The notes beneath the pieces are model-generated. The model did no database searches, had not been told where the DNA came from, and saw only the letters and a program-made list of their open reading frames with translations. Made by a program: the position numbers and the translations under genes. This document shows, one piece after another, positions 1,911-32,593 of a stretch of DNA of 64,000 nt (positions within the stretch are counted from its first letter, which is position 1; every line of letters begins with the position of its first letter). Location of the stretch: assembly GCA_020048915.1 (NCBI GenBank), contig JAIFLU010000033.1:62001-126000 (forward strand), read 5' to 3'. Source of the stretch: Bacteroidota bacterium. Lineage in GTDB: Bacteria; Bacteroidota; Bacteroidia; Bacteroidales; JAAUTT01.

Positions 1911-1920
1911 TTTATTTAAT

Positions 1921-2883: not shown

Positions 2884-2894
2884 AGTTTCGATTT

Positions 2895-3854: not shown

Positions 3855-3858
3855 TGTA

Positions 3859-5880
3859 TTACTTCATAGCTTTTATGCGAATAACCGTAAAAGAGTTTGG
3901 TTTAAGCGTATAATCCATTCCCGTACCTTTTATCGGTAATTCGGAAATTTGAGGTACAACTTCGTTGGGGTTATCGAGCGAGTTCTCGGCAGTAGCATCG
4001 GTGTGCCAAAGCGCAGTAACCTTCGCTATTTTTCCAAGTTTCTTAATTCCCTCGAAATTTATAGTTATAGGCAAGGGGGTTTGTTTCTTGCTAACAACTT
4101 TCACTATGTATTCGCCTACTTGCGTGTTGAAGCCGCCCAACGCCCATATTTCCTGCTCGTCGGGGTTGGTAACTTTTGGTACTGATGTTTCGAGCGTGTA
4201 ATCGGGGCGGTTATGCGCAAGTAGTTTTTGTACATAGTACGAACTGCGCCCTGCAACCCGAGCATTGTCAATAGCAATCATGTTTACCGGCCATGCAATA
4301 TCGTTTTCGTGGTAAAACAAGGGTGCATACGAACTCATTTTTACAATGTCGCTGTTGCGTTCCAAGCCAATAAGATAAGCAGCTTCGGCCAATGCCGCGG
4401 TTATATTCCCATTGCCAACGTTGGACGTAACACCATATTCGCCCACATAAATACTCGGGCTAGTGCGGTCGTAAGTGTCGTACTGCGAAACGTTTTTGAA
4501 AAAACTTTCGGGCGAACCGTACTTGTGGTGGTCGGTAATTTCAACTGTTCCGCCATCGACCTTATCGAAATTGCTGATGATATGTAAGTTTGGATATTTC
4601 GCTTTTATTGCATTGTAAAACAACTTGTAATTGTCGGCATACACCTTGCCACTGGCTTCGTTTCCTATTTCGATGTATTTCAGGCTGAAAGCTTCGGAGT
4701 GCCCATTGGCTACCCGCATGGCTCCCCATTTCGAATCGACAGAACCAAGGGCATATTCGAGGGCATCCATTGCTTCGTCAACAAACAGGTGAACATCTTC
4801 GGGCTTGGCAACTTCCGAGTTACGGTAATTATCGCTGAAACCGGGGTTACATACCCAAAGGGCATCGGCGCCAATGTCTTCGCATAATTGAAGGTATTCG
4901 TGAAAACCAAGACCATTGCTTGTCCAGTAGCCCCAAAGGTTCATGGTACCCTTGCGTTGGGCAATGTCGCCTATGGAGTTTTTCCATTGTATACGGTTGT
5001 CGAGGTTCAAGCCCCCTACAATTGCTCCTCCCGGGAATCTTACAAAAGAAGGTTTCAGGTCGGCAAGCAATTGCGCAGCATCGGCACGCATGCCGTTGGT
5101 GCGGTTTTTAAAGGTATTACGCGGAAACAAGGACACGATATCGAACCATACCGTGTCGGGTGCATTTAAATAAAAAGCCAAGCGCCCATTGGCATCTGAA
5201 GCATCGGGTGTAAATGAGCAAGTGTATTTTTTCCAGTTTTTGCCTATATCTTTCATGTCGGTTTGCGCGTATGCCTGATGACCGATGGCGCTTTCGAGTG
5301 CAACAGAAAGGCTTGAATTGTTATTTGTCCGGGCATAAAAAGATAAATCGTAGGTTTGACCTGCAATAAAATTCATCCCCCAAAAGCCATTGTTGGCCAC
5401 TCCCATCTTTCCTCCCGGGTTAGAGCATATAAGCCTCATCGAATGCGGGTTACGGTCGTTCAAGGCTCCGTCCGATACTTGTTTTATATAGCCTTGGGCA
5501 TTCCCTTTTTTAACAATCGACCAGCCATGCAGCGAATTTGTAAACCATTTACGCTCCTGCCAACTGTCTTTCGTTCTCAATAAATTTCCTGCCCAGAAGG
5601 CTCCTTTTGGTAAGGTGTTATATTCAAAATCGCGGTTGATAACCATTTCGGCATACAAACCGCCTTCGCCAGCGTGATTAATCTCTTCGAAAAAGATGCC
5701 ATAAAGGGTTTTGCTTACTTCTACTCCTTTTTTGTCAGCCGATATTGAAATAACCGTCGGCTGTGCAATTAACACGGCATAGAAAAAAATGGCTATTATA
5801 AAACTTAATGAATGCTTTAGTTGAATATTTGTCATTTTAAGAATTAAATAGGAAAACTTATGAATCGTATTTGCCCTCAC
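3859..5880 (-). CDS. Alpha-L-arabinofuranosidase, GH51-like
   Basis: 673 aa; LYGIFFEEINHAGEGGLYAEMVINRDFE, FVRFPGGAIVGG, KYIEIGNEASG, VGEYGV motifs characteristic of GH51. Confidence 0.9.
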   Translation of the reverse strand: MRANTIHKFSYLILKMTNIQLKHSLSFIIAIFFYAVLIAQPTVISISADKKGVEVSKTLYGIFFEEINHAGEGGLYAEMVINRDFEYNTLPKGAFWAGNLLRTKDSWQERKWFTNSLHGWSIVKKGNAQGYIKQVSDGALNDRNPHSMRLICSNPGGKMGVANNGFWGMNFIAGQTYDLSFYARTNNNSSLSVALESAIGHQAYAQTDMKDIGKNWKKYTCSFTPDASDANGRLAFYLNAPDTVWFDIVSLFPRNTFKNRTNGMRADAAQLLADLKPSFVRFPGGAIVGGLNLDNRIQWKNSIGDIAQRKGTMNLWGYWTSNGLGFHEYLQLCEDIGADALWVCNPGFSDNYRNSEVAKPEDVHLFVDEAMDALEYALGSVDSKWGAMRVANGHSEAFSLKYIEIGNEASGKVYADNYKLFYNAIKAKYPNLHIISNFDKVDGGTVEITDHHKYGSPESFFKNVSQYDTYDRTSPSIYVGEYGVTSNVGNGNITAALAEAAYLIGLERNSDIVKMSSYAPLFYHENDIAWPVNMIAIDNARVAGRSSYYVQKLLAHNRPDYTLETSVPKVTNPDEQEIWALGGFNTQVGEYIVKVVSKKQTPLPITINFEGIKKLGKIAKVTALWHTDATAENSLDNPNEVVPQISELPIKGTGMDYTLKPNSFTVIRIKAMK

Positions 5881-5889
5881 CCCAAATAT

Positions 5890-6942
5890 TTACAATTTAA
5901 TAACCCTGATTTTTACCGCGTAGGCATTCTGTGGATTTTTAACCAGCATTAAATCAATATCATCATCACTAAACCCATTTTCTTTTAAGGCCGGAATAAG
6001 ATCATTGAAAATATTGTTATAACCTCTGAATTTACCACCGTTTTCCTGTCCGGGATTGTACCACCCTGCATCGTGCGAAATCAATACCTTATGAAGCAGA
6101 TTTACTTTTTTCAGTTCTGTTAAAATTTTTGCATAGAAGGCAATACCTCTGGACTCATCTGATTGGTCTGATAACTTTTGAATATTGTCAAGGGAAATCC
6201 ATGCACCCTGTTTTGCCGCTTTAATATACCCTTCAATGGTGCCATGCTGAGCATGTGTCCATACAAAGGCTTCAGGAGATACTCCCTCATTTTTCAGAAT
6301 TTCCAGTTGTGCAAACGCAGGGTCATCGGTGCCGGTATGTGAAACAATAGTCAGACCAGTGGCTTTGTGTGCAATAGCCGCAGCTTTTACAAGCTTTGCA
6401 TGCATTGGTGATAAAGTGTCTTTTCTTTCCACTCCAATTTTAATGAATCCTGGAAAAATACCGGTGCCTTCAATCCCATTGTTAAACTCTTCGATCCAAA
6501 CTTTGGCAATATCTTCAGCAGTATCGTCAAAAGCATGTTTAGGAAAAAATTTATTGTCTCTTGCCCCATAATAACCGGTATTGGTAACAATATTGATCCC
6601 GGATTTTTCGGAAAGTTCTTTATACAATAAAGGATCGCGGCCCAGATAAGCAGGAGTGCATTCAAAGAATGTTTTTACACCATTTTTCTTCGCTTCCATT
6701 AAAAAAGGAAGGGCGCATTCAATCACTTTCGATTTTTCCCAACGATGGTACCCTGTGCTGTCGGCCCCGATAAAATCGACCAGAATATGCTCATGAATCA
6801 GGCAAATACCCATTTTTTCAACCGGGATTTCGCCTTTGACGGTGATAAGTTTTAATTCTTGGGTTTTACATGAAATTGAAAAACAAAGGATTACAAAAAT
6901 GAAAAACGAGAATGAGCTCTTACTGAATATTGTAAACTTCAT
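5890..6942 (-). CDS. Phosphotriesterase-family metal-dependent hydrolase (possible lactonase), lipoprotein-like signal
   Basis: 350 aa; LIHEHILVDF HxH motif, VSHTGTD, WTHAQHG, LISHDAGW; leader ending in CFSISCKT (possible lipobox). Confidence 0.8.
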   Translation of the reverse strand: MKFTIFSKSSFSFFIFVILCFSISCKTQELKLITVKGEIPVEKMGICLIHEHILVDFIGADSTGYHRWEKSKVIECALPFLMEAKKNGVKTFFECTPAYLGRDPLLYKELSEKSGINIVTNTGYYGARDNKFFPKHAFDDTAEDIAKVWIEEFNNGIEGTGIFPGFIKIGVERKDTLSPMHAKLVKAAAIAHKATGLTIVSHTGTDDPAFAQLEILKNEGVSPEAFVWTHAQHGTIEGYIKAAKQGAWISLDNIQKLSDQSDESRGIAFYAKILTELKKVNLLHKVLISHDAGWYNPGQENGGKFRGYNNIFNDLIPALKENGFSDDDIDLMLVKNPQNAYAVKIRVIKL

Positions 6943-7158
6943 GACAGATTATTTTTAAAATTCATTTTGTTGTAAATATACAATTTAACTATGCTTCTAA
7001 ATTCCACGACACCGGCTTTTCTATTCCTTATTTCCGAAGCCAGACTATTGACGTTGGAGATTTCCATTGCCGCCCCATTGAATACGATCCGGATGTCTGG
7101 ATATGCTTTTGCTTGAAATAATATCCAGCAGTAAAATTTTTTTTCTGTTGTCCTTACT

Positions 7159-8118
7159 TTAATTAACAAGCTTCTTTGCCTGCTTCTCAACAAAGGCAAT
7201 ATTACGTGACATGTCTTCCTGAAGGGCAGGAGTATCATGTTCGAAATCAATTGTAACTGCACCCTTATAACCTTGGCGCGCAAGTTCTGCCAAGGATTCG
7301 GCACAAGCCCCTTGCCCCTCGCCGATGACAGTATTATTGCAAAAAAGTTCCCCTTTGGTCTGAATATCTTTGAGGTGGAAATTAAATATCCTGCCTTCAA
7401 GCTTTTTTAGGCACTCAACCGGATCGAGGTTTGAGCGGGCCCACTGTCCTCCGTCGGCTGTTGCTCCAACATAAGATCCTCGGCCATTAGACATTTCAAG
7501 CACTATTTCAGGACTCCAGTACTCCGAGCGTTCCCTCTGATGGTTATGAAGGGCCAACTTGACTTTATATTCTTCACAAAGCTCCTCAAGCATGTTTATA
7601 TACTCTTTTTTTTGGGGCGGTTCAGCTGTATAGACCACTGTTCCGAAATCCTTCCAGAAATCGAACAATCGTTTGGCCTGGTCGCGTTCGCCGGTAAAAT
7701 CAGTGAATATGGTGGGTACAGAAAGGCCATTATCGGCCAAACGGGCCTTGAGTTCTTTGCGGGCATCGCCGGGCATATTTTCATCTGCATTCATGCCGGG
7801 GCGTTTCGTGTCTAATTTCAAGTTGCTCCGAACTTCAAAATAATGAAGGCCTATCTCCGAAGCCATGTCCAAAGCCTCGAATAGTGAAAAGCGGCGGTAT
7901 GTATAACCTTGCACACTTACGCGCCAGCCCAGCTTATCGACATTAGGCAACTCAAGAGGCATTATGGGCTTCTTCACCTGTGCAAATACCGGCATGCGGG
8001 AAAGCAGCCCCAATCCAAGAGCCAGTGCTCCGCCTTTATATAGAAAATCGCGACGGTCAATTCCGGATTTTTGATTTTTGTTTTCTTCGAAAGAAACACT
8101 TGGTTTAGATGGTTTCAT
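7159..8118 (-). CDS. Tat-type exported sugar phosphate isomerase/epimerase-like protein
   Basis: 319 aa; IDRRDFLYKGGALALGLG leader; LALHNHQRE, ATADGGQW, FHLKDI, VTIDFEHD motifs; co-linear with the 966..1910 product. Confidence 0.8.
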   Translation of the reverse strand: MKPSKPSVSFEENKNQKSGIDRRDFLYKGGALALGLGLLSRMPVFAQVKKPIMPLELPNVDKLGWRVSVQGYTYRRFSLFEALDMASEIGLHYFEVRSNLKLDTKRPGMNADENMPGDARKELKARLADNGLSVPTIFTDFTGERDQAKRLFDFWKDFGTVVYTAEPPQKKEYINMLEELCEEYKVKLALHNHQRERSEYWSPEIVLEMSNGRGSYVGATADGGQWARSNLDPVECLKKLEGRIFNFHLKDIQTKGELFCNNTVIGEGQGACAESLAELARQGYKGAVTIDFEHDTPALQEDMSRNIAFVEKQAKKLVN

Positions 8119-10696: not shown

Positions 10697-13186
10697 TTAT
10701 TCCTTGTCCTTGATCAACCGGAGACCGAAGCCTGTTTCCTTTACGTGATGGCTGTCGCCCAAGTATTTGGACCAGTTATGAATACTGCTCAGCCATCCCC
10801 TGTCTGAAGCCTGTTCTGTGCTGCTCCACATGTATAAGCTTCCCGTCAAATTGTGGAAGCTACCGTCGTTCCAGCGGGCACCGTTGGGTAGACCATTGAA
10901 ACCAGTCTTGTTGTTTAACTCCGGACGCTCGCTGATCAGCAATTCTTTTTCCCAATATTTTCCTTGTTTGTCCACGATTCGATACTCCCAGCCAATTCTT
11001 CCCGCCATCGATTTACCGACCTTGTTCTCCTTGTCCTTTTCGTGATTGTTTTCGCCCTTCCATTCGGGGTATTTGGTTCCATCGCAGTTATATCCATTGT
11101 TTACCAGGTACCGGCGAAGGGTCAGTTGTTCCTCAACCGTAGGCACATGCCAGCCTTTTGGCGCAATCTTCGGATGGTTTGCGGCCCACCAGTTGTATAA
11201 TAACCCTATTTTGGCGTGTTCGGGCTTGTTGTCGTAGTAGCAACATGCAGCGGACTTAAGCTGATTCCATTCCTTGTTGTCTATCACGTTGGGGATCGGG
11301 GTGCCGTCGTTATACTTGGTGGTGCGCAGGCTTGAGGTGGTCCACACCTGATCGCCGATCTTCACCGTCTGGTAAACATTCCCGTCCGCATCCGTCACCG
11401 TTCCCGCGCAATCAATCATTTCGATGGCCATTTTGCTGGCCTCGGGTGCGGGCACATGAATCTGATAATCCAAATAGCCTTTTTTGGTGACAGTGATCAC
11501 ATCCCTGCGATAGTCAACGAAGCCTCTGTCGTTAACCTTTTTGGTTACCGGCGCAAGACCATTCAGAACCATGCTAAAATTTCCCTTTGAATCTGTCTTC
11601 GTGGATTGGCTGGTGCCTTCCAACTGCACCTTGGCTCCAGCCAAGCCGACCCCGGAGGAGTTTTTAACCGTTCCTTTGATGCTGGAAGCCTGCTCAATAG
11701 TATCGATACGCAAAAGCCGGATACAGAAACCAGACCGGTCATGATGCTGGTTGTTGCCGTATTTTGCAAACCGGCTGTGAATACTGCTCATATGCGAGCC
11801 TTCGCCTTCGCCCTTGGTAGTACTCCACCAGTAAACGCTCTGTCCCATGGCGTGGAAGCTCCCGTCGTTCCAGCGACTGCCGGTGGGGAGCGCAGTAAAA
11901 CCGGATCGGTTGTTGGTAGTCAAATCGTTGCCGGCGTTCCCCGGTGTCGGATCGGGACCCCAATCGGTTCTGGCTGTCATGGACTTGGCAACCTTGTTGT
12001 CTTTCTTGGTGCCGTCGAAGTTTAATCCAATGGCGATCAGACAGTCCCGCAGCATCATTTGCTCTTCAATGGTCGGAACTTTCCACCCCTTGGGGGCGAT
12101 CTTGCCGGAACTGGCGGCCCACCAGTTATACAACGCACCGTATTTTTTTCCGTATTCGGGGTTGTTCTCGTAATAGCAGAAGCCCGGACTAGCCAAACCT
12201 TTCCATCCGGCATCGTCGGTTACGTTGGGAATCGGGGTGCCGTCGTTGAACTTGGTAGTTCTAAGGTTTTCGACTGTCCATACCTGACTGCCAATCCTCA
12301 CCGTGTTATAGACGTTCCCATCTGCATCCGTGACGGTTTCCGAAGAAGTGGCTTTATCTACTGTTTTAAGCCCGGCAGTCCAGCGGACACCACGGACAAT
12401 TAATTCGCGAAATTCAGGACAATTATAGACTTTTTCATCGTGTCCAAGCTGAATATTGAAAACCTTGGATTTCCCATATTCTCGTGTCCAGGCAATAGGC
12501 TCATCGTTTTCAGGGTGATTTGTGGTCAACAGCACATTGTTGTCTTTTGCCCACCAGCGCCCCATGTAGGTTTCGTCGATTACCTCGAAATCCTTCATGC
12601 CCCGGGTAATCGGATGCTGATTATCCTTTACCTTGATGGGGATATTCAAGCCCTCATGAACCTTGCCGTGCGGCCAGGGTTTTCCATCTATTTCGACGTC
12701 GAAATAAATGTAGGCTGTCCCGATGATTTGATGATATTCATGCCAGCTTTGAAAAGCAGCTTGCGCGTGATGCATCACTACCAGGCCAACGCCTTTTTCC
12801 TTCATGAGCCGCACAAAGTTCTCCTGTCGTTTGGGGGATATTTTTTGTGTCATATTGTAAAGAAAGATGACATCGTAATCCCATTTACTGATGTCCTCAA
12901 ATACCTCGCTTTCATCCTTCAGGGTATACTCGGAATAATTAATGTCTACGCAATCAAAGATGCCGAAGAATGACTCGCGGTTGAAGTGATGCCCGCTTGT
13001 CACGATAAGGACATCAATTTTGTCAGGATCACCGAACGCAGTTTTACGGGAAGCTCCCTGCGCGTCAATGCTAAACAATAATGACATTATTATACTAAAT
13101 ATCAGTACAATATTTTCTGATATTTTTTTCATCCCTGTAGTATTAATACAATTCATGGAGAATAATTTACAATGATTTTTTTTCAT
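10697..13186 (-). CDS. Multidomain secreted protein: ThuA-like + FISUMP + CarboxypepD_reg-like + FISUMP
   Basis: 829 aa; ThuA-like IDVLIVTSGHHFNRESFF...GVGLVVMHHAQAAF...VFNIQLGHDEKVY; FISUMP copies ~11709-12350 and ~10697-11410; IKGTVKNSSGVGLAGAKVQLEG between them. Confidence 0.8.
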   Translation of the reverse strand: MKKNHCKLFSMNCINTTGMKKISENIVLIFSIIMSLLFSIDAQGASRKTAFGDPDKIDVLIVTSGHHFNRESFFGIFDCVDINYSEYTLKDESEVFEDISKWDYDVIFLYNMTQKISPKRQENFVRLMKEKGVGLVVMHHAQAAFQSWHEYHQIIGTAYIYFDVEIDGKPWPHGKVHEGLNIPIKVKDNQHPITRGMKDFEVIDETYMGRWWAKDNNVLLTTNHPENDEPIAWTREYGKSKVFNIQLGHDEKVYNCPEFRELIVRGVRWTAGLKTVDKATSSETVTDADGNVYNTVRIGSQVWTVENLRTTKFNDGTPIPNVTDDAGWKGLASPGFCYYENNPEYGKKYGALYNWWAASSGKIAPKGWKVPTIEEQMMLRDCLIAIGLNFDGTKKDNKVAKSMTARTDWGPDPTPGNAGNDLTTNNRSGFTALPTGSRWNDGSFHAMGQSVYWWSTTKGEGEGSHMSSIHSRFAKYGNNQHHDRSGFCIRLLRIDTIEQASSIKGTVKNSSGVGLAGAKVQLEGTSQSTKTDSKGNFSMVLNGLAPVTKKVNDRGFVDYRRDVITVTKKGYLDYQIHVPAPEASKMAIEMIDCAGTVTDADGNVYQTVKIGDQVWTTSSLRTTKYNDGTPIPNVIDNKEWNQLKSAACCYYDNKPEHAKIGLLYNWWAANHPKIAPKGWHVPTVEEQLTLRRYLVNNGYNCDGTKYPEWKGENNHEKDKENKVGKSMAGRIGWEYRIVDKQGKYWEKELLISERPELNNKTGFNGLPNGARWNDGSFHNLTGSLYMWSSTEQASDRGWLSSIHNWSKYLGDSHHVKETGFGLRLIKDKE

Positions 13187-13279: not shown

Positions 13280-14914
13280 TCATTCACGTATTAAACGAAT
13301 GCAAAAACCGGATGTCCTTTGGTGCTGAACAAAGCCGTACTTTGCCAACCGACTTTTAATATAGCTCAAGTGCGCATCATCCCCACTGCCTGGCGTCGAA
13401 CTCCACCAGTAAACGCTTTGCCCAATTGAGTGGAAACTCCCATCGTTCCAACGGCTGCCGGCAGGAAGCGCCGAGAAGCCGGTTTTGTTGTTTGTTTCCG
13501 GATTATTGCTCACCGTTCCAACATCCGGCGCCGATTCGTTACCTTCGTTTGTTGGCTTATAATTCCAGCCGGTCTTCGCTGCCATCGATTTGCCGATTTT
13601 GTTTTCCTGCGTTGTTCCATCGTAATTATAGCCGCTGGATACCAAATAGTTACTAAGCACAATTTGCTCATCAAGCGTAGGCACCCTCCACCCTTTTGGT
13701 GCAATCTTGTCGGAGCTTGCAGCATACCAATTGTACAGAATGCCGTATTTCTTTCCGTTTTCAGGATTGTTCTCGTAATAGCAGAAACCCGGAGTGGTAA
13801 GGCTTTTCCATCCTTCGGCTTCTGTAATATTGGGAATCGGCGTTCCATCGTTGAATCTGGTTGTTTTAAGGTCTTCAACAGTCCATACCTGACTGCCAAT
13901 CCTCACCGTATGATAAACATTACCATCCGCGTCCGTCACGGTTTCCGAAGATTGGGCTGAATTGAGTTGTTCCTCAGCAACAACGATTTGATTTTGAGAT
14001 TGGCCGCTGGTTTTAGGCAGGAAGTTGGCCAACCCTTTTTTCATCACTAATTTTATTTCCGCATCGGTAAGTGCGCGGCTCCAAATAGCAGCCTCATCGA
14101 TCAGCCCCTGAAATACAAAACGGGCAGTATCAAAACGCATCACCCCGCCAAGAGCTGTAATCGTTGGTGTGATGGGTTCACGCGTGTAGTTAATACGACT
14201 TGTATCCTGAATGCCATCAACATAAAGACGAGCCTTTCCGTTTTCATCCACCAAGGCGATGTGATGCCATACATCGTCGAATGCAATGAGACTTGTACGA
14301 TGATGCAAGATTAGCGTGTTGCCATTATTGGCACGCAAATACACATCCACTACACCTTCGGGCGCCCGGCGGTCGGTGCTGATGGCCACCAATGGACTGC
14401 GTAAATTTGTACTTTCAGAAAAAACTCTACCTGTCCCCTTTGACGTGTTGCCTTTGACCCACATAGCTACCGTAGAGGACTTGTGCGAGTATGCCGGTAG
14501 ACCGGTGCCATTTTTCGCAAAACATAAGAGGAGGGAATTAATACCATTGAAAGAGATGGCATTGCCTCGCTTTCCCGGAACCACATCGGCTGCAGTCAGA
14601 TTGATTGCTTGAAGATGGTTCTTGTTGCCGCTCAAGTCAGGTGTTGTTGCAGAGAGAATATCCAATGGCCAGTAGGCCACAAGTCCTTTTCGTATTTCAT
14701 GCTTGGAGGCTGCCGCAGGTGTCGCAGCGCAGCCGGTTATACAACCCAACAGAGTTATCGTTACTAAAATAGACAGTAAGGCAGTTTTGATTTTCAATGG
14801 TTTCAAAAATGCTACTATTACACTAATTATCAGCACAATTTTAATCGGCATATTTGTTAACCCTAATGTTTTAAACCATTTTCCTGATATAAGTATACAA
14901 TGAGTTTCTTTCAT
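13280..14914 (-). CDS. LamG-like domain + FISUMP domain secreted protein
   Basis: 544 aa; YWPLDI...DLSGNKNHLQA...VAMWVKGN...HHIALVDENGKARLYVDGIQD...IDEAAIWSRALTDAEI (LamG), then a FISUMP copy ending GFCIRLIRE. Confidence 0.82.
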   Translation of the reverse strand: MKETHCILISGKWFKTLGLTNMPIKIVLIISVIVAFLKPLKIKTALLSILVTITLLGCITGCAATPAAASKHEIRKGLVAYWPLDILSATTPDLSGNKNHLQAINLTAADVVPGKRGNAISFNGINSLLLCFAKNGTGLPAYSHKSSTVAMWVKGNTSKGTGRVFSESTNLRSPLVAISTDRRAPEGVVDVYLRANNGNTLILHHRTSLIAFDDVWHHIALVDENGKARLYVDGIQDTSRINYTREPITPTITALGGVMRFDTARFVFQGLIDEAAIWSRALTDAEIKLVMKKGLANFLPKTSGQSQNQIVVAEEQLNSAQSSETVTDADGNVYHTVRIGSQVWTVEDLKTTRFNDGTPIPNITEAEGWKSLTTPGFCYYENNPENGKKYGILYNWYAASSDKIAPKGWRVPTLDEQIVLSNYLVSSGYNYDGTTQENKIGKSMAAKTGWNYKPTNEGNESAPDVGTVSNNPETNNKTGFSALPAGSRWNDGSFHSIGQSVYWWSSTPGSGDDAHLSYIKSRLAKYGFVQHQRTSGFCIRLIRE

Positions 14915-14999: not shown

Positions 15000-17561
15000 T
15001 CAGAGAGCATTAATCGAATATTTACAACCTGCTTTTGCCGGAAAAACTATGCACTCGCCATTGCTTTTATCAATAGTACACTTAACAGTTTTATCAGATT
15101 CGGTAACAATAACCTGTCGGCCAGGCCAAGGGTTTATGATAAGGCAAGGATTGTCGCGCCGAGCCACAACTTCGAGAAAATATACTTTTTCTGCATTTTT
15201 AGCTGCCGAAACAACGAAAGCGCCCCGAGCCTGGAAATTTCGAAAAGCCACAACTTCTTCTGCTTTTACGGCCGGGAAAAGGTACATACGGCCGCTTCGG
15301 CTGTTAAGTAATGCTTCAGCATTAAAATCATCCCAAAAAGTATCATTGCCTGTTTGCCCCAGGAGAGTGAGCGCCTGACCTGTAGTACCGGCATTGGAAA
15401 GCTTTTTAGCAGTCCGAAGCATCATTTCCTTTTGTTCCTTCGGTGAATCGAGTGTAATATCATCAGATAGCAGTACAGGATATTCTGCCGCTTCGCCAAA
15501 ATGGTCGGCTTCGTAGTGAATTGGTTCTACTCCTTCGATGGCGCAATACATCGAGCCATCAGGCCCTTTCCAAACCGGATATGGGGCTAAATTTGCTGCC
15601 ACTTCACGCCATTTGCCACGCAAATCACTGTCAACACCCAGGATTTCGGAAGCTTCAGATGTCCGGTTCAAAGCCCATTTGAACATACACAGCGAACTGA
15701 TAACATCTTTGTTACGGGCAAGCCCGGCATACCATCCCCATTTTTCAGGTTCCATAGAAGGTATAATATGATAAAATCCATCGTCGCCTTTTTTTACATA
15801 AGCTGCATAGAAAATAGCCATCTCACGCATAAGCGGGTAACATTCGTTTCGTAAAACATTAATGTCGCCGCCATAATCCCATTCGTCCCATACAGGCTTG
15901 ATAATCTGCGCCATAGTTTCAAGACAAAATTCGAGGGTAAGGGTAGTATGGACAATTTTATCGGGTTTTACAGGAGGTTGGTAACCATGTAAAATTGCCA
16001 TCCCGGGCATACCGAACATGTCCCTGGCATTGTTTTTGGCGCCTTCCATCCAATGCCATACCAGGTTTTTCCACATTTTTTGATTGTCGGCCCTGTTACG
16101 TACAAATTGCATGGTGGTGAAAACTTCATTATAACATGGAGAGCTGCTCCAGTATTGAGCATCACGATCGGGATGAACATACATTGCGGTGCATTCATAT
16201 TTGCGCATATCGGTATATGTGCCGCCGCCATGACCATCTGCATAACTGCTGTAAATATTTTCTATTTTATCGGTACAACTATCACCACTCAAACCATAAA
16301 ATATACGGCCATTTTCACGTATATTATAGAAGTTGTTCCACCACAAGGTATTTTCTTTTAATACGCCATCAAACCCATCTTTTTCGGCTTTAGTTAGTCG
16401 TTCTTTGGCCATACCAATAACATCGGGGTTGTCCATAGTTGTAAAAACGGTTATCAAAGCTTCGAAATCTCCCTTTTTAGGGGCAAATGTAACTGTTGCA
16501 GCCACCCCCGGGGCACGGGCAATAAGTTCTTCGGCAGGTGGGGTACCCAATCCTTTCTTGCCTTCGGCAGTTTCAATTTTCACTTCGCCGGGGGTAATAA
16601 CCAACCCCATCATTACATATTCAAAACCTTTCGGGAAAGTCTTTTCAGGTGGCATCTGCTGCTTTATCCAAAAAAACCTGCCATCGGTTCCACAGGTAGG
16701 CGGAGCCATTGGATAATTAAAAGCGCTATCGGCTTCAGTACCCTTTTTTGTATATGTTTTACCATCTTCGTCCATGTATTTTAAATGGGAAGTATCGAAA
16801 TGACGAAATAATCGAAGCCATACCGGGGTGTTTATTCCCGAAAATTTTCCGCGAACAGCGTAAAGGTTACTGGTCATGCCCAAAACATATTGCAAGTTTG
16901 CCGTGGCATCTTTTTTTGTTATTTCCATTTCCACAAGACCATTTGCACAACATTGCTTTATCTGAGGAATGGCCGCTCCTGCCAAAGCATCCATTCCAAT
17001 AATAATTTGTCCAACGGGTTTAAGACAGGGCAATGAATACTCAAGTGGCTGTCTGTATGGGTCATAAAACCCACCCTCTTTAAGCAGGTAACCATAACCC
17101 CAGGGGCGTTGACAATCACTGGCAACACCTTTGAAACCTTTGTTTGCCGGCGAATAAGCGCCAGCAACAATTTCCTGCAATGTTGGAACATCCAGGCCGC
17201 GAGGATTGATCCGGCGATCCCAAACATCGTTCTTCGTCAAACTAATGGTAACCCTGTTTGTTGGCCCCCAGATTGTTGTGCGCATTTTCAGGTTATTGAT
17301 TGCCATTGCCTTGCCCTCCGGATAACAATTCCGGTTGGGAAGCGAATTTGCCGTATCCAACATACTGGTTAAAAATATAGATTGAGCCGCTTCACGCAAA
17401 GGAACTTCCCTTTCCCATGGCAATTGCTTATTATTGTTACATGATGTTAATGAAAATGTTATTGTAGCACAAAGTATTAGCAAAATATTTAACGGCATTT
17501 TAGTTAACTCTAATGTTTTAATGCCATTTCCCGAAATTCTCATACAATGATTTGTTTTCAT
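15000..17561 (-). CDS. Six-hairpin (alpha/alpha)6 glycosidase-like protein, lipoprotein signal (copy 1)
   Basis: 853 aa; FSLTSCNNN lipobox-like; helical C-terminal half; close paralog of 29174..31732. Confidence 0.6.
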   Translation of the reverse strand: MKTNHCMRISGNGIKTLELTKMPLNILLILCATITFSLTSCNNNKQLPWEREVPLREAAQSIFLTSMLDTANSLPNRNCYPEGKAMAINNLKMRTTIWGPTNRVTISLTKNDVWDRRINPRGLDVPTLQEIVAGAYSPANKGFKGVASDCQRPWGYGYLLKEGGFYDPYRQPLEYSLPCLKPVGQIIIGMDALAGAAIPQIKQCCANGLVEMEITKKDATANLQYVLGMTSNLYAVRGKFSGINTPVWLRLFRHFDTSHLKYMDEDGKTYTKKGTEADSAFNYPMAPPTCGTDGRFFWIKQQMPPEKTFPKGFEYVMMGLVITPGEVKIETAEGKKGLGTPPAEELIARAPGVAATVTFAPKKGDFEALITVFTTMDNPDVIGMAKERLTKAEKDGFDGVLKENTLWWNNFYNIRENGRIFYGLSGDSCTDKIENIYSSYADGHGGGTYTDMRKYECTAMYVHPDRDAQYWSSSPCYNEVFTTMQFVRNRADNQKMWKNLVWHWMEGAKNNARDMFGMPGMAILHGYQPPVKPDKIVHTTLTLEFCLETMAQIIKPVWDEWDYGGDINVLRNECYPLMREMAIFYAAYVKKGDDGFYHIIPSMEPEKWGWYAGLARNKDVISSLCMFKWALNRTSEASEILGVDSDLRGKWREVAANLAPYPVWKGPDGSMYCAIEGVEPIHYEADHFGEAAEYPVLLSDDITLDSPKEQKEMMLRTAKKLSNAGTTGQALTLLGQTGNDTFWDDFNAEALLNSRSGRMYLFPAVKAEEVVAFRNFQARGAFVVSAAKNAEKVYFLEVVARRDNPCLIINPWPGRQVIVTESDKTVKCTIDKSNGECIVFPAKAGCKYSINAL

Positions 17562-17777: not shown

Positions 17778-17842
17778 TGTTCTGTATATTCTTAATTTTT
17801 AAGGGATTTATAGTCAAGCTTTCATTTCTTCCCATTGCGTGG

Positions 17843-17877
17843 AAAAACAAACCACCTCAATTGCCTGAAATGGTTTG
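17843..17877 (-). terminator. Rho-independent terminator downstream of the BASS-family transporter gene
   Basis: Minus strand CAAACCATTTCAGGCAATTGAGGTGGTTTG (~13 bp stem with G-U pairs) followed by TTTTT. Confidence 0.8.
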
Positions 17878-17890
17878 TGCAATACTTATT

Positions 17891-19165
17891 TTATTCCTTG
17901 GGAGGTTTACTTCGCCACCAGCTTGCCAGAGCAGATCCGGTCACATTCATGAGCGGACCAAATATGGCAGGAGCAAGCCCAACAGTTGCTATTTTCCCCA
18001 TTTGCAGCGCCAATCCTGAAGCCAATCCTCCATTCTGCATCCCCACTTCAAAAGCAACGGTGCGGCGGTCTTTTTCAGGCATTCCAAATAACCACGAAAC
18101 TCCGTAGCCCAGTGAATACCCAGCCAGATTATGCAACAAACTGGTGACCAAAAGCAACGCACCAACCTTTAAAAGACTATCGCGGCCAGTAGCCGTTATA
18201 ATGGTAATGATGACTGCAATACCCACCATGGATATCAGGGAAAGAATTTGCCCCATCAATTTTTTGTCACCTTTCAGAAAATGCCTGAATGCGATAGCTC
18301 CAATCATTGGCAGAAAATAGAACCAGCTCATTGATTTAAGCAAAGCCATCAAGAATCCCTGAATATCAGCTTGCTTAGCCTTCATGAAAACCAAATCGGT
18401 CAATAAAATAATGATGAAGAATACAGTTAACTGTATCGCTTTTGAGCAGAGCTTTTCTTTGTTTTCATTGAATAAATTGAAAATAAAACCGGCAACAATC
18501 GGAAGGATGATCATATTCAGAATATCAAGCATCATGCTCCAGAAGTTTACCTCGATGTACTGTCCTCCAAGCATTTTCATCAGAAAAGGAGTAACAAATG
18601 GTGAAATCAGTGTTGAAATCGCACCGATTGTTACAGCCAAAACCAGATTGGCATGGGCAATATACGACATTACATTGGAGGCCAATCCACTTGGGACACA
18701 GCCGATCAGGATAATTCCAGCCGCAATTTCAGGAGGAAAGTTAAATATCCGCGAAATGGCAAAAGCGACCAGTGGCATGATGATATAATGCGATCCGACT
18801 CCAATAATTACTCCTTTTGGCATTTTTATCACACCGGTAAAATCACTCAAACTCATTTGCGATCCCATGCCGAACATGATAATCTGCAAAAGCGGAACAA
18901 TGAGTGTTTTAAACTGAAAACTACCTGCTGAAGTAAAATATTGGGGATAAAACATGGCCGCAGTTACAGCAGTAAAGATCCAGATTGTATAAGCGAAGCC
19001 TTTAAATGCCGCGAATCCCCTGACTGCAAAAGCAAGTAATAAAAAGAAAGAAATAAGAAAAGGACCGGAGTTGGCTAAGTTTCCGGTAAAAATGAAGAAA
19101 AACGAGATGATCAGAAATAGCACAGCAAATCCGCTTGTTATCTTGTAAGCATTGATTTTTTTCAT
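17891..19165 (-). CDS. BASS-family (bile acid:sodium symporter-like) transporter
   Basis: 424 aa with multiple TM segments; FGMGSQMSLSDF, GCVPSGLASNVMSYIAHANLVLAVTIGAISTLISPFVTP, AFEVGMQNGGLASGLA motifs of this superfamily. Confidence 0.85.
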   Translation of the reverse strand: MKKINAYKITSGFAVLFLIISFFFIFTGNLANSGPFLISFFLLLAFAVRGFAAFKGFAYTIWIFTAVTAAMFYPQYFTSAGSFQFKTLIVPLLQIIMFGMGSQMSLSDFTGVIKMPKGVIIGVGSHYIIMPLVAFAISRIFNFPPEIAAGIILIGCVPSGLASNVMSYIAHANLVLAVTIGAISTLISPFVTPFLMKMLGGQYIEVNFWSMMLDILNMIILPIVAGFIFNLFNENKEKLCSKAIQLTVFFIIILLTDLVFMKAKQADIQGFLMALLKSMSWFYFLPMIGAIAFRHFLKGDKKLMGQILSLISMVGIAVIITIITATGRDSLLKVGALLLVTSLLHNLAGYSLGYGVSWLFGMPEKDRRTVAFEVGMQNGGLASGLALQMGKIATVGLAPAIFGPLMNVTGSALASWWRSKPPKE

Positions 19166-19168
19166 AGT

Positions 19169-20653
19169 TTAACTCCAGGTTCTGTCATGTGAGCGCTTTT
19201 CGTTCCATTCTTCAGTTGGGGCAAAAAAGCTTTTATCTTTTGCATGCAAATGTTCTTTTACGACATCTTCATTCAATTCAATCCCCAATCCAGGTGAGTT
19301 TGGGACAGGAGCAAAACCTTTATTAATAATCGGATTGCCATCGGTCATTTTCACCAGACTTTCCCACCAGGGAAGGTCAACTGAGTGATGCTCGAGCGCT
19401 AAAAAATTTTGGGTAGCAGCAGCACAATGAACGCTGGCCATAAACGAAACCGGAGTTCCAGCCTGGTGCATTGCCATTGCAATTCCATGTTCCTCCGCAT
19501 AATCGCCAATCCGTTTGGTTTCGAGAAGCCCACCCGAAGATGCCAAATCTGGATGAATAATGTCAACTGCATGGGTATCAATCAGCGGTTTAAAATATTG
19601 CAACAGATAAATATCTTCTCCGGTAGTCGTAGGAGTTTCCAAGGCATCGGTAATTGTTTTCCATTGTTCGGTATAGTCCCAGGGAACCATGTCTTCGAGC
19701 CAGGCCAGCCTGAATTTTTCAATGGCTTTACCCAGGCGAATGCAATTATTTAAATCAAAATGTCCGTAATGATCTGTTGAAATCGGAATATCCCAACCAA
19801 TATGCTCACGGGTATGTTCGGCAATTTTAACCAGTTCTTCCAATCCTTTATCTGTTATTTGTATTTGGGTAAATGGGTGTTTGGTGTTTCCATAACCCAT
19901 ATATTGGCGAAGGTCATACTGTCCGGTTGCACCATCCCAGAATTCATGATTCACTAAAGCACCCGGAATATTCTTCAGTTCATTGATGGAAAGATCCATT
20001 TTCAGCCAGGTGTATCCCTGATCCTCAATTCGATATTTGATTTTTGCGGTTTGATCCTCATGTGATTTACCTTCCGGAGTATCAGCATATAACCGGATAC
20101 TATCGCGGTATCTTCCTCCCAATAACTGCCAGGCCGGAACTCCATAAGCTTTGCCGACAATGTCCCAAAGCGCCATTTCAACAGCACAAACTCCACCAGC
20201 CTGACGTGCCTGTCCGCCAAATTGTTTTATGATTTTAAAAATCATCTCCACATTACATGGATTAAGCCCCAGAATGCGGCTTTTAAGCATCAGAGCATAT
20301 CGGACATCGGCGCCATCGCGTACCTCGCCCAATCCTGAAATTCCTTGATTTGTATCAATTCGAATAATAGCCGTTTGTCCCAAAACTCCAGTCAGTGCAT
20401 AACGCATGTCGGTTATTTTTAAATCCGATGGACTGGAAGCTCTCGAAACGCCTGCTGTTGTTTGTGCAATTGTATCTTCAATCGGCAATCCAAGCAATCC
20501 GCCAATTGCGATACCTCCCAGAGCTGTTTTTTTGAGAAAATTACGCCGGTTATTGCTTGTTGCCGGGTTTTCAATTTCAGCCATAACAGCTTCTTTTTGA
20601 GCCGATTCGCGTTCTTTGTTTTGTGCAGCAATTTGCTGTATTATACCTTTCAT
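19169..20653 (-). CDS. Tat-type exported enolase-superfamily (MR/MLE-like) sugar-acid dehydratase
   Basis: 494 aa; NNRRNFLKKTALGGIAIGGLLG leader; TWLKMDL, STDHYG, WLEDMVP, TTGEDIY, HPDLASSGGLLETKRIG, AMHQAGTP motifs. Confidence 0.85.
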   Translation of the reverse strand: MKGIIQQIAAQNKERESAQKEAVMAEIENPATSNNRRNFLKKTALGGIAIGGLLGLPIEDTIAQTTAGVSRASSPSDLKITDMRYALTGVLGQTAIIRIDTNQGISGLGEVRDGADVRYALMLKSRILGLNPCNVEMIFKIIKQFGGQARQAGGVCAVEMALWDIVGKAYGVPAWQLLGGRYRDSIRLYADTPEGKSHEDQTAKIKYRIEDQGYTWLKMDLSINELKNIPGALVNHEFWDGATGQYDLRQYMGYGNTKHPFTQIQITDKGLEELVKIAEHTREHIGWDIPISTDHYGHFDLNNCIRLGKAIEKFRLAWLEDMVPWDYTEQWKTITDALETPTTTGEDIYLLQYFKPLIDTHAVDIIHPDLASSGGLLETKRIGDYAEEHGIAMAMHQAGTPVSFMASVHCAAATQNFLALEHHSVDLPWWESLVKMTDGNPIINKGFAPVPNSPGLGIELNEDVVKEHLHAKDKSFFAPTEEWNEKRSHDRTWS

Positions 20654-20695
20654 TTTATCTGATTATTTTTTTTCAGTACTAAATACTCAATGCCC

Positions 20696-21628
20696 TTAAT
20701 AATTTCTTTCTTTCATGTAATCATCCAGTTCCTTTTTCGACATCGGCAATTTTCCCGGATAATTATTCAGCCAGTTCAGAAAATCCTTTTTGATTTCATC
20801 GCTCCATTCACTATCGATTTCGCCTGCCAGGTATTTCTTTTCCTTCAGCCGCAAATGTCCGAATTCGTCGCGAAGCGCTGTTACTTCTGAAGTCAATACC
20901 AAATCCTCTACCAAATAAGCCGGAATAAAAATCACACCGTATTTATTTGCAAGAACGGCATCGCCAGGTAACACAATAGCCCTTCCAACCCGTATTGGCG
21001 CATTAATTGAAGTCAGCATCATTTGCTGAATGTAGGAAGGATCCGCTCCTTTGATCCAGCCATTAAAACCTTTAATTTCGGAAAGGCCTTCCTGATCGCG
21101 AACGGAGCCGTAAAAGATTACCCCTCTTTGCGATTTGGCATAAATTGAATTGCCCAGGTTATCGCCAATGAGGGTGCCATCAGCAATTTTTCCATAGCTA
21201 TCAGCTACATAAACATCACCTTCAGTCAAAATATCAATTGGCCATGAATTTGTTCCGCCCTTTTGTGCCCGTCCCTCAATCTTGCCCTGCTCTTTGAGCT
21301 GTTTCTCAAAATCGGGCCTGAGCGGCATATATTGGGCAGTCACTACCCGGCCAGTCATTGATTCGCAGGGGTTGATAATTGTCCAGTCGCCCTCGAACTG
21401 GTTTTGGAAACCTTTGTTTCGCAATACTCCCCATGCTTCTTCGATAGAGATATTCTTTAATCTTTCCAGAATTGCATCCGGCACTTTTGGCCTTCCATCG
21501 GCAAAACGCACTCCTTTCCACTCTGAAGTTAATGCTTTAATGTATTCGGGCGATGAACCTACGCGCTGAGCATAAGTAAAAAGGCAAACGAAGAGTAAGG
21601 TTGCCATCAATAATATTTTCCTGTTCAT
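20696..21628 (-). CDS. Exported RraA-like (HMG aldolase-type fold) protein
   Basis: 310 aa; signal MNRKILLMATLLFVCLFTYAQ; GDNLGNSIYAKSQRGVIFYGSVRDQEG and GDAVLANKYGVIFIP motifs. Confidence 0.8.
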   Translation of the reverse strand: MNRKILLMATLLFVCLFTYAQRVGSSPEYIKALTSEWKGVRFADGRPKVPDAILERLKNISIEEAWGVLRNKGFQNQFEGDWTIINPCESMTGRVVTAQYMPLRPDFEKQLKEQGKIEGRAQKGGTNSWPIDILTEGDVYVADSYGKIADGTLIGDNLGNSIYAKSQRGVIFYGSVRDQEGLSEIKGFNGWIKGADPSYIQQMMLTSINAPIRVGRAIVLPGDAVLANKYGVIFIPAYLVEDLVLTSEVTALRDEFGHLRLKEKKYLAGEIDSEWSDEIKKDFLNWLNNYPGKLPMSKKELDDYMKERNY

Positions 21629-21690
21629 GTCTTTTTGGTTATTTGTAAATATTGACTTTCACTTTCAGAACGGATTTTTAAACAATATTT

Positions 21691-21734
21691 AAAAAAGTAT
21701 CCGCATTGATGGATTAAACTTCCTGCGGATACTT
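21691..21734 (-). terminator. Rho-independent terminator between susD and the RraA-like gene
   Basis: Perfect 11-bp stem AAGTATCCGCA / TGCGGATACTT, followed on the minus strand by a T tract (CTTTTTTAAAT). Confidence 0.8.
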
Positions 21735-21765
21735 ATTAATATCAGTGTTAAAGTACATTAAAGTA

Positions 21766-29173: not shown

Positions 29174-31732
29174 TTATTTTGGATGAAGCATATAGTGCTT
29201 GCCCGCAATGGTCGAAAATACAATGCATTCTCCGTTACTTTTATCAATCCTGGTCATCACTGGTTTTCCACTGGCTGATTCAACCACACTAACCGGACGG
29301 CCAGCCCATGGATTCATAATCCGGCAAACATTATCTTTTCTTGCTTCCACATGCAAATAGTAAACTTCTTTGTCGTTTCTGGCTGCCGATACTAAAAATC
29401 CTCCCCTGGCCTGGAAGTTACGGAAAGCCACAATCTCATCAGCATTTATTGCAGGGAAAAGGTGTATCCGCCCGCTTCGACTGTTCAGAAGGGTTTCGGC
29501 ATTGAAATCGTTCCAGAACGCTATACCTCCCGGTTGGCCCAGCAGCGTCAATGTTTGTCCTGTTGTTCCGGCATTGTGAAGTTTACGGGCCGTACGGAGC
29601 ATCATTTCTTTTTGTTCTGCCGGCGAGTCAAGGGTAATGTCGTCCGACAATAATACCGGATATTGTGCTGCTTCTCCAAAATGATCAGCTTCGTAGTGAA
29701 TGGGTTCAACACCTTCAATGGCACAATACATTGGACTTTCGGGGCCTTTCCAAACCGGGTATGGTGCCATGTTCGCGGCAACCTCACGCCATTTTTCACG
29801 CAAATCGCTTTCAATACCAAGTATCTCCGATGCCTCGGCAGCTTTATTAAGCCCCCATTTAAACATGCACAGCGAGCTTATTACATCTTTGTTCATACTC
29901 AACCCGCCATACCAGCCCCATTTCTCCGGATCCATGGACGGGATGATATGATAATAGCCATCGCTACCTTTTTTTGCATAGGCTGCATAAAATATGGCCA
30001 TTTCTTTCAGAAGCGGGTAACAATCGTTTCGTAAAACGTTGATATCACCTCCGTAATCCCATTCATCCCACGCCGGTCGGATAATCTGCGCCATTGTTTC
30101 GAGACAAAACTCCAGCGTGATGGTTGTATGCAGAATTTTATCGGGTTTTACAGGTGGCTGGTAGCCGTGTAAAATGGCCATACCAGGCATCCCGAACATG
30201 TCGCGGGCATTGTTTTTTCCACCCTCCATCCAGTGCTGCACCAACTGTTTCCACATCTGCTGATGGTCGGGCCAGTTGCGTACAAAGTGCATGGTTGTGA
30301 ATACCTCGTTATAGCAGGGCGAACTGCTCCAGGCCTGCGCATCGCGCTCCGGGTGCACATATTCGGCCGCACACTCGTATTTGGTCATGTCGGTGTGGGT
30401 TCCTCCTCCGTGGTGGTCGGCGTAACTGTTGTAAATACTGACAATGTCATCGGTGCATTTTGTTCCGTTCGCGCCAAAAAATACGCGTCCGTTCTCGCGT
30501 TTATTGTAAAAGGCATTCCACCACTGTGTGTTCTCGCGAAGAATGCCATCAAAACCATCTTTCTCTGCTTTGGCCAACCGTTCCTTCGCCAGTTTTATTA
30601 AATCGTCGCCATCCATCGATGTTACAATGGTTACCAGGGCTTCAAATTCTCCTTTTTCAGGCGAAAAACTGATGGTTGAAGCAGCACCTGTTGCTTTGGC
30701 AATGCGTTTGTCGGGAGGTGGTGTGCCCAATCCCGGCATCCTTTCCTTAACGGTTACTTCGCCAGGGGTATTAAGCACACCCATCAGGATATATTCAAAA
30801 CCATTGGGAAATGTTTTTTCTGCTGGAAATTTCTGGCGAATCCAGAAATACTTTCCATCTTTTCCGCTGGTGGGTGGGTCCATCGGGAAGTTGAAAGCTC
30901 TGTCGGCGGCAGTTCCTTTTTTGAGGTACTTTGTTCCCTCCGGGTTCATGTAATCTTCATGGGCGGTGTCTTTGTGCCTATACAATCGCAGCCAAACAGG
31001 TTTGTTAATTCCTGAAAGCTGGCCTTTGATTGCATACATGTTGCTGGTCATTCCAAGTATATATTGCAGTTTTGCTTTCGCACCCTGGTTTGTAAGTTCC
31101 AACTCTGTAAGACCATTGGCGCAACATTGTTTTATTTCAGGCAGTTGTGCTCCTTCAAGCTGGTCAATGCCCACGATAATCTGTCCAACAGGTTTTAAAC
31201 AGGGCATCGCATATTCGTGAGGTGTGCGGTACGGGTCGTAATATCCGCCATCTTTCAGCAGATAGCCATAAAACCAGGGGCGCTGACCATCATTTCCCCT
31301 GCCCATAAATCCTATATTTGTAGGTGAATTAACGCCTTCGACAATCTCTTGCAAGGTTGGAGCTACCAATCCGCGGGGATTAATCCGTCGGTCCCATACA
31401 TTATTTTTGGTGAGGCTGATGGTTATCTGCTCCGGCGGTCCCCAAAGGGTGGTGCGCATCTTCAGATTATTGATGGTCATAGCCTTTCCGTCGCGGGGAT
31501 AGCACTTTCGGTTGGGCAACGAATTGTCGGGAGCTAATGTGCTGGTAAGAAAAATCGATTTAGCGGCTTCTTTCAGAGGTATTTCACGATCCCAGGGTAA
31601 TGACGGAGTTTCCTGTGAAAATAATGTAAGTGAAAAGGTAAAAACGACAATGATTAATGTGGCGATTTTTTTCACCCTGAAATTTTGAAGTAAAATCAGG
31701 AAGACATTGGCATTAATTGTTTTATTCATCAT
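29174..31732 (-). CDS. Six-hairpin (alpha/alpha)6 glycosidase-like protein (copy 2)
   Basis: 852 aa; paralog of 15000..17561 along nearly its full length, with a different leader. Confidence 0.6.
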   Translation of the reverse strand: MMNKTINANVFLILLQNFRVKKIATLIIVVFTFSLTLFSQETPSLPWDREIPLKEAAKSIFLTSTLAPDNSLPNRKCYPRDGKAMTINNLKMRTTLWGPPEQITISLTKNNVWDRRINPRGLVAPTLQEIVEGVNSPTNIGFMGRGNDGQRPWFYGYLLKDGGYYDPYRTPHEYAMPCLKPVGQIIVGIDQLEGAQLPEIKQCCANGLTELELTNQGAKAKLQYILGMTSNMYAIKGQLSGINKPVWLRLYRHKDTAHEDYMNPEGTKYLKKGTAADRAFNFPMDPPTSGKDGKYFWIRQKFPAEKTFPNGFEYILMGVLNTPGEVTVKERMPGLGTPPPDKRIAKATGAASTISFSPEKGEFEALVTIVTSMDGDDLIKLAKERLAKAEKDGFDGILRENTQWWNAFYNKRENGRVFFGANGTKCTDDIVSIYNSYADHHGGGTHTDMTKYECAAEYVHPERDAQAWSSSPCYNEVFTTMHFVRNWPDHQQMWKQLVQHWMEGGKNNARDMFGMPGMAILHGYQPPVKPDKILHTTITLEFCLETMAQIIRPAWDEWDYGGDINVLRNDCYPLLKEMAIFYAAYAKKGSDGYYHIIPSMDPEKWGWYGGLSMNKDVISSLCMFKWGLNKAAEASEILGIESDLREKWREVAANMAPYPVWKGPESPMYCAIEGVEPIHYEADHFGEAAQYPVLLSDDITLDSPAEQKEMMLRTARKLHNAGTTGQTLTLLGQPGGIAFWNDFNAETLLNSRSGRIHLFPAINADEIVAFRNFQARGGFLVSAARNDKEVYYLHVEARKDNVCRIMNPWAGRPVSVVESASGKPVMTRIDKSNGECIVFSTIAGKHYMLHPK

Positions 31733-31780: not shown

Positions 31781-32593
31781 TTATTTCAGTGAGCGAACCC
31801 AAATGTTTCGGAAACGTACAGCGCAATAGTGCGCGGGTAAACTTATCGGACCAACAGAATCAGTCTTCTTGTAAGCTGGGAATTGCCGGTGACGTGTCTC
31901 ACCGTAAATTTCCTGATCAAGATGAACCAACACTCCGTTGTGCATGAGAGTGAGCCGTGCTGGCTTTACCAATTTCTCATTTTCGAAAACTGGAACTTTG
32001 AAAAATATATCGAAATCCTGCCATTCGCCAGGTTTTCGGCATGCATTTACCAAAGGAGGGGTCTGCCCATAAATGGCGGCGCACTGTCCATCCGCGTAAA
32101 GAGGTGTTTTGTAGTTGAAGGAGTTAAATATTTGTATTTCAAATTGATCCATCAGCGCAACACCATTGTTGCCATCGCCATACCAGGGGCCCTTAAAATC
32201 GGTTGGCACCAACCATTCGGCATGAACCTGAACATCGCCAAAAGAATCTTTAGTAACTAACTTGCCTTCTCCGGCGACAATCTGACCCTCCTCAATCTTC
32301 CATGATGTTGAAATCTGCCAGGCCGACAAATCTTTGCCGTTGAACAGGATAACCGCATCGGAAGGAGGTGGTACAGAAAGGCCTGCAGGCCCAACCTGAA
32401 TTATCGGCGGGAGTGGTCGGTCAGGGTCGTGCATAAAGAATTCACACCAGGGCAGTTTTGGGGTGTCCTTGTATCCAAAAACTCCGGAACCATCTTTGGC
32501 TTTTGCCATATCAGCCTGGGCCAGCACAGTGGCAATTCCAAAGATAAAAATGGCCAGAGTGTTTAATGTAATGAACTTTAATGGATTTTTCAT
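31781..32593 (-). CDS. DUF1080 (3-keto-disaccharide hydrolase-like) secreted protein
   Basis: 270 aa; AVILFNGKDLSAWQ...SFGDVQVHAEWLVP...GDGNNGVALMDQFEIQIFNS...WQDFDIFFKVP. Confidence 0.85.
   Translation of the reverse strand: MKNPLKFITLNTLAIFIFGIATVLAQADMAKAKDGSGVFGYKDTPKLPWCEFFMHDPDRPLPPIIQVGPAGLSVPPPSDAVILFNGKDLSAWQISTSWKIEEGQIVAGEGKLVTKDSFGDVQVHAEWLVPTDFKGPWYGDGNNGVALMDQFEIQIFNSFNYKTPLYADGQCAAIYGQTPPLVNACRKPGEWQDFDIFFKVPVFENEKLVKPARLTLMHNGVLVHLDQEIYGETRHRQFPAYKKTDSVGPISLPAHYCAVRFRNIWVRSLK

Follow-up and report, generated by a model that had tools for sequence, protein, structure and literature searches.

Gene content and boundaries of the locus

The 64,000 nt stretch of DNA analyzed here (positions 62,001 to 126,000 of contig JAIFLU010000033.1, assembly GCA_020048915.1; hereafter the window) comes from a Bacteroidota bacterium of the order Bacteroidales. 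Three closely spaced genes on its minus strand encode an RraA-like enzyme, a putative acid-sugar dehydratase of the enolase superfamily and a BASS-family transporter. They are tentatively read here as a periplasmic module for sugar-acid catabolism, in which dehydration would be followed by an RraA-catalyzed step and by import through the BASS protein. The genes and their features are as follows:

20696-21628, minus strand: RraA-like enzyme with a Sec-type leader, 310 amino acids (aa); PF03737, E 5.6e-15
21566-21628, minus strand: Sec-type signal peptide of the RraA-like protein, residues 1-21, ending TYAQ; from homolog leaders
21095-21163, minus strand: D156-X20-R177-D178 motif of the RraA-like protein; from the homolog alignment
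19169-20653, minus strand: putative enolase-superfamily acid-sugar dehydratase, 494 aa; PF13378, E 7.4e-46, and PF02746, E 3.2e-10
20528-20554, minus strand: twin-arginine motif NNRRNFLKK, residues 34-42 of the dehydratase; from homolog motif counts
17891-19165, minus strand: BASS-family transporter, 424 aa; PF01758, E 1.1e-36; nearest to ASBT_NM and PanS
18284-18475, minus strand: two-helix insertion of the BASS protein, about residues 231-294; from alignment and model
21691-21734, minus strand: intrinsic-terminator-like hairpin at the susD/trio boundary; from folding against shuffled sequences
17843-17877, minus strand: intrinsic-terminator-like hairpin 3' of the BASS gene; from folding against shuffled sequences

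The genes of the trio are separated by 42 and 3 nt, with 137 nt between susD and the RraA-like gene and 329 nt beyond the BASS gene. A preliminary description of this DNA had proposed a three-gene unit bracketed by two terminators, and the gene order, the spacing and both hairpins were confirmed, the hairpins lying at the positions it gave and being oriented correctly for the minus-strand trio. The segment containing the susD/trio hairpin (21685-21740) folds at -17.1 kcal/mol (z -5.28), and that beyond the BASS gene (17835-17885) at -17.7 kcal/mol (z -3.59), with 0 of 200 shuffled sequences folding as well in either case. A generic terminator scan listed neither hairpin, probably because of its limits on loop length and tail, and both were then folded directly.

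Export signals and conservation across Bacteroidota

The NNRRNFLKK leader of the dehydratase passes the cut-off of the NCBIfam Tat domain model (19.7 against 16.7 bits), and a TatC gene is present elsewhere in the genome. Homologs of the dehydratase fall into two paralog groups, Enol1 and Enol2, and a twin-arginine motif of the RRxF type is found in 70 of 71 full-length Enol1 and 18 of 18 Enol2 proteins; the single Enol1 protein without it has an apparently mis-called start. The n-region ahead of the motif (window 20540-20653) is unusually long, at about 35 residues, as well as charged and conserved, and this conservation among the N-termini of relatives, ahead of RRxFLK, supports the start codon call. 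The RraA-like protein carries a Sec-type leader ending FTYAQ; a hydrophobic leader occurs in all 94 scored homologs, and Q21 is invariant. Both of the leaders noted in the preliminary description are present and conserved across homologs, and from them we infer that the two enzymes are located outside the inner membrane.

When genomes were scanned with the RraA-like protein, 80 loci were recovered, in Prolixibacteraceae-like metagenome-assembled genomes, Dyadobacter, Algoriphagus, Puia, Pontibacter and others. The distribution of the family is patchy: 25 of 297 sampled Bacteroidota genomes, that of the window included, hold a total of 38 matches, nine of them weak (distant, or similar to the FlDet enzyme described below). 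Only 4 of 99 relatives searched carry the RraA-like protein, counting the window's own genome, and it is found in none of the four same-genus genomes among those 99. Across 104 RraA loci, the commonest neighbors are the dehydratase (93 loci), SusC and SusD (55 each) and BASS (44), followed by UxuA and pyrroloquinoline quinone (PQQ) dehydrogenases (10 each), and then by MFS carriers and KdgK (5 each), DgaE and amidohydrolases (4 each) and Eda (2); many of these loci belong to close relatives, and the counts are not independent events. A search of the 297-genome sample with the dehydratase gave 15 sites in 11 other genomes, and all 15 adjoin, or lie within a few kb of, a gene for an exported RraA. 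The paralogs are also matched, RraA1 with Enol1 in 84 pairs and RraA2 with Enol2 in 25, with no crossed pairs. The lack of mixed pairs, together with the phylum sample, makes chance adjacency untenable, and the neighborhood is conserved and co-inherited in other Bacteroidota.

Immediately upstream of the trio are genes for SusD, SusC, FecR and an ECF sigma factor, whose order matches that in Dyadobacter, an arrangement that would also suit a trio that is merely the tail of the upstream polysaccharide-utilization operon and serves its SusCD. This is considered very improbable, given the strong hairpin in between and the low identity of the window proteins to RraA-adjacent counterparts elsewhere (30-33% for SusC and 27-31% for SusD), which among themselves share 43-84% and 40-84%, respectively. 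The trio of this genome appears to be located behind an unrelated SusCD, a reading that follows from the low identities and agrees with the position of the hairpin. The window SusCD was likewise considered as the module's own importer and dropped, for the same low identity.

Predicted reactions and transport

At some loci lacking the dehydratase, RraA lies beside a Tat-leadered UxuA (L041) or beside BASS (L038, L112), and at three others (L093, L094, L107) beside DgaE-family proteins with twin-arginine N-termini and a PRK09237-type amidohydrolase. The presence of DgaE-family pyridoxal phosphate-dependent ammonia lyases next to exported RraA, BASS and amidohydrolases in these last three neighborhoods hints at an amino-sugar-acid branch in the periplasm. 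Enolase-type dehydratases, UxuA and DgaE are mutually unrelated, and their known relatives yield 2-keto-3-deoxy acids. Formation of such an acid in the periplasm is considered quite probable and, with unrelated partner enzymes whose relatives make this class of compound, RraA is most simply read as acting on it, which we regard as likely. The PQQ dehydrogenases of 10 loci most resemble the glucose/quinate/shikimate family and include a cytochrome c domain, which fits the production of sugar acids in the periplasm. A phosphotriesterase (PTE)-like hydrolase at 5890 had been put forward as a lactonase partner, but no match to it was found in loci L001-L086, and this suggestion is unsupported.

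The nearest solved structure to the dehydratase is 2qq6. The metal ligands D294, E320 and E346, the D369-H396 dyad, K218 and E421 are all conserved in Enol1 and Enol2. On the third strand, where the D-x-H of galactonate and mannonate dehydratases would presumably be expected, the sequence is D-H-[YF]-G-H in Enol1, DMHGR in Enol2 and D-H-[WTF]-G-H in more distant members. All of the named NCBIfam models for sugar-acid dehydratases score below their cut-offs, the best being that for galactonate dehydratase (175.4 against 311 bits), so that no substrate can be named. These low scores and the altered D-x-H of Enol1 might also be expected of a racemase, epimerase or cycloisomerase acting on another exported substrate. 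Such a function has a slim chance, as the closest models and structures are those of acid-sugar dehydratases, Enol2 keeps the canonical DMHGR, and the linked UxuA and PQQ dehydrogenase genes indicate sugar acids.

The AlphaFold model of the RraA-like protein (pLDDT 86.9) has the fold of RraAS2 and the HMG/CHA aldolase, with Foldseek matches to 5x15 (E 1.8e-14) and 3noj (E 6.7e-14). D156, R177 and D178 are invariant in all 96 aligned homologs and form a D-X20-R-D sequence, which we take to be the motif of RraA-like class II pyruvate aldolases. In the two enzymes together, the catalytic residues are mostly present, with one dehydratase position being non-canonical. Divergent exported RraA copies also occur, with Ala at D156 (L091:9295-10227 and L106:9001-9927) or Asn at D178 (L096:8248-9195).

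The HMG/CHA enzyme is a class II pyruvate aldolase, and most RraA homologs retain one of the two required motifs (PMC5065237). The RraA-family enzyme FlDet of Flavobacterium sp. UMI-01, also in the Bacteroidota, is a dehydratase/decarboxylase that converts 2-keto-3-deoxyglucarate to 2-oxoglutarate semialdehyde, and 2-keto-3-deoxygluconate (KDG), its 6-phosphate (KDPG) and 4-hydroxy-2-oxoglutarate are not substrates (PMC8563752). The FlDet-type protein of locus L088 shares 25% identity with the window protein and likewise carries the D-X20-R-D motif, so the motif alone cannot separate cleavage from dehydration, and the aldolase activity assigned in the preliminary description is not established. 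Membership of the FlDet type was considered for the window protein and dropped, since it scores 89.9 bits against the PRK08245 subfamily model of NCBIfam (cut-off 208), compared with 332 for the L088 protein. A related possibility is that the dehydratase acts on an aldarate and that the RraA-like enzyme dehydrates and decarboxylates the resulting keto-deoxy-aldarate to 2-oxoglutarate semialdehyde, which is then oxidized and used. FlDet provides the precedent, from the same phylum, and the L088 protein of its type shares the motif, but the low identity and score make this route improbable, as does the lack of a semialdehyde dehydrogenase among the recurrent neighbors; moreover, the UxuA and DgaE relatives would yield KDG-type and not aldarate-type products.

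The closest characterized relatives of the BASS protein are ASBT_NM and PanS. Of the 14 helices in its model, ten are the expected transmembrane segments, two are additional N-terminal helices and two form an insertion that is limited to the window's clade by alignment and model. The crossover residues E260, Q264, N265 and G267 of ASBT_NM correspond to E373, Q377, N378 and G380, which are invariant in 16 homologs. In ASBT_NM, pantoate is contacted by Asn265, His294, Asn295 and main-chain atoms, and the plant carriers for pyruvate, glycolate and keto acids have Ser at 265 and Gln at the Thr112 position (PMC10645422). Positions 265, 295 and 112 are Asn378, Asn407 and Leu161 in the window protein, both Asn being invariant in the family alignment, and the pyruvate-type (BASS2) signature of Ser265 and Gln112 is absent. 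With Asn378 and Asn407 in place, the substrate leans, though not conclusively, to a hydroxylated acid over pyruvate. That BASS imports a product of the module is moderately favored; that this product is pyruvate, as proposed in the preliminary description, is not established and seems unlikely. Residues 177/181 (positions 128/132, presumably Na1 sodium ligands) are Ala/Gly in the window's clade and Ser/Thr in other members, and Na+ coupling may differ in this clade.

From these comparisons we infer a substrate for the dehydratase, a reaction for RraA and a compound transported by BASS. In the periplasm, the Tat-exported dehydratase would act on a sugar acid, which is probably an aldonate, and yield a 2-keto-3-deoxy acid. 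This compound would be the substrate of the Sec-exported RraA-like enzyme, for which metal dependence and a pyruvate-type enolate are expected; the leading candidate reaction is retro-aldol cleavage to pyruvate and an aldehyde, although such cleavage is given slightly less than an even chance. The 2-oxo or hydroxy acid so formed would then cross the inner membrane through BASS. Several points weigh against this scheme: D-H-[YF] replaces the expected D-x-H in the Enol1 dehydratase, the RraA-family relative FlDet is a dehydratase/decarboxylase and not an aldolase, the two Asn of BASS favor a hydroxylated acid, and BASS is near RraA in just 44 of the 104 loci, with an MFS carrier substituting in some. 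Of the periplasmic sugar-acid pathway first envisaged, the three-gene unit, leaders and neighborhood stand, their conservation strengthens the idea, and the linked Tat-UxuA, PQQ dehydrogenase, DgaE, KdgK and Eda genes support its sugar-acid theme; the aldolase and pyruvate-import steps are not established, and the PTE step is unsupported.

Import of the dehydratase product whole by BASS offers a different ending, in which cytosolic KDG kinase and KDPG aldolase would complete its breakdown and RraA would play an accessory part, acting on that compound or on an off-product. KdgK and Eda are within the cluster at L011 and L013, which suits import of the uncut acid, and the window's genome encodes a close KDG kinase homolog and a KDPG-aldolase family protein elsewhere, so that an imported keto-deoxy acid could be usable by the host; no UxuA-family protein was found in a search of this genome. 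The retained Asn265- and Asn295-type residues of BASS, and the D-galactonate-type MFS carrier alongside the RraA-dehydratase pair at L011 and L027-L029, also agree with such import. However, RraA, the most constant partner, would be left without a main role, and KdgK occurs in just 5 of the 104 loci; on balance, this ending is thought to be rather unlikely. Returning to the periplasmic module, a broader and more doubtful generalization is that of a modular, non-phosphorylative Entner-Doudoroff-like periplasmic pathway in Bacteroidota, in which a PQQ dehydrogenase would supply sugar acids, an interchangeable Tat-exported enzyme (enolase-type dehydratase, UxuA or DgaE-type lyase) would convert them to 2-keto-3-deoxy acids, an exported RraA aldolase would cleave the latter, and a BASS or MFS carrier would take up the product.

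Wider context and comparison with known systems

The SusCD-plus-trio block lies between two GH95-like paralogs (15000-17561 and 29174-31732) that share 71% identity over 830 residues. The three neighboring genes at 10697-13186, 13280-14914 and 15000-17561 belong to different families, and their products start in a similar way (M-K-x-x-H-C ...), as though a leader had been copied. A 3-keto-disaccharide hydrolase family protein (31781-32593) and four xylose-isomerase-like TIM barrels (966-8118) suggest 3-keto-sugar chemistry in the window.

Sugar-acid breakdown of the kind proposed is usually cytosolic, and here it would run outside the inner membrane. No published periplasmic version of the pathway was found in the open-access literature searched, which is not proof of absence. 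If the proposal is true, a share of central sugar-acid catabolism takes place beyond the inner membrane in Bacteroidota, which would alter what is imported, the energy cost and what may leak to neighbors, and a function would be provided for an unassigned branch of the RraA family, one branch of the enolase superfamily and one set of BASS carriers. Through the survey, a guess from a single window has become a gene set that can be tested in culturable genera, Dyadobacter and Algoriphagus among them.

Cytosolic Entner-Doudoroff type sugar-acid pathways (UxuA, KdgK, Eda) share the same class of intermediate, a 2-keto-3-deoxy acid, whereas the enzymes that would form it here bear Tat-type leaders, which would place their activity outside the inner membrane. 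The acid-sugar dehydratases of the enolase superfamily (galactonate, gluconate and ManD enzymes, and 2qq6) have metal ligands, a His-Asp dyad and a KxD lysine in common with the window dehydratase, which differs from the galactonate, gluconate and ManD enzymes in its Tat-type leader, its D-H-[YF]-G-H on the third strand and its scores below every named-family cut-off. PanS and ASBT_NM share the conserved crossover residues of the window BASS protein but not its two extra N-terminal helices and two-helix insertion. FlDet is, like the window protein, a member of the RraA family from the Bacteroidota, and acts on a 2-keto-3-deoxy acid; the FlDet type, however, has no leader, is 237 aa long and about 25% identical, and its gene adjoins those for alginate lyase and semialdehyde dehydrogenase. 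The HMG/CHA aldolase and RraA-like class II pyruvate aldolases (3noj, YER010C, PF03737) have the same fold and D-X20-R-D residues, but the window protein bears a Sec-type leader as well as additional segments at both termini, and its links are to sugar-acid enzymes rather than to aromatic catabolism.

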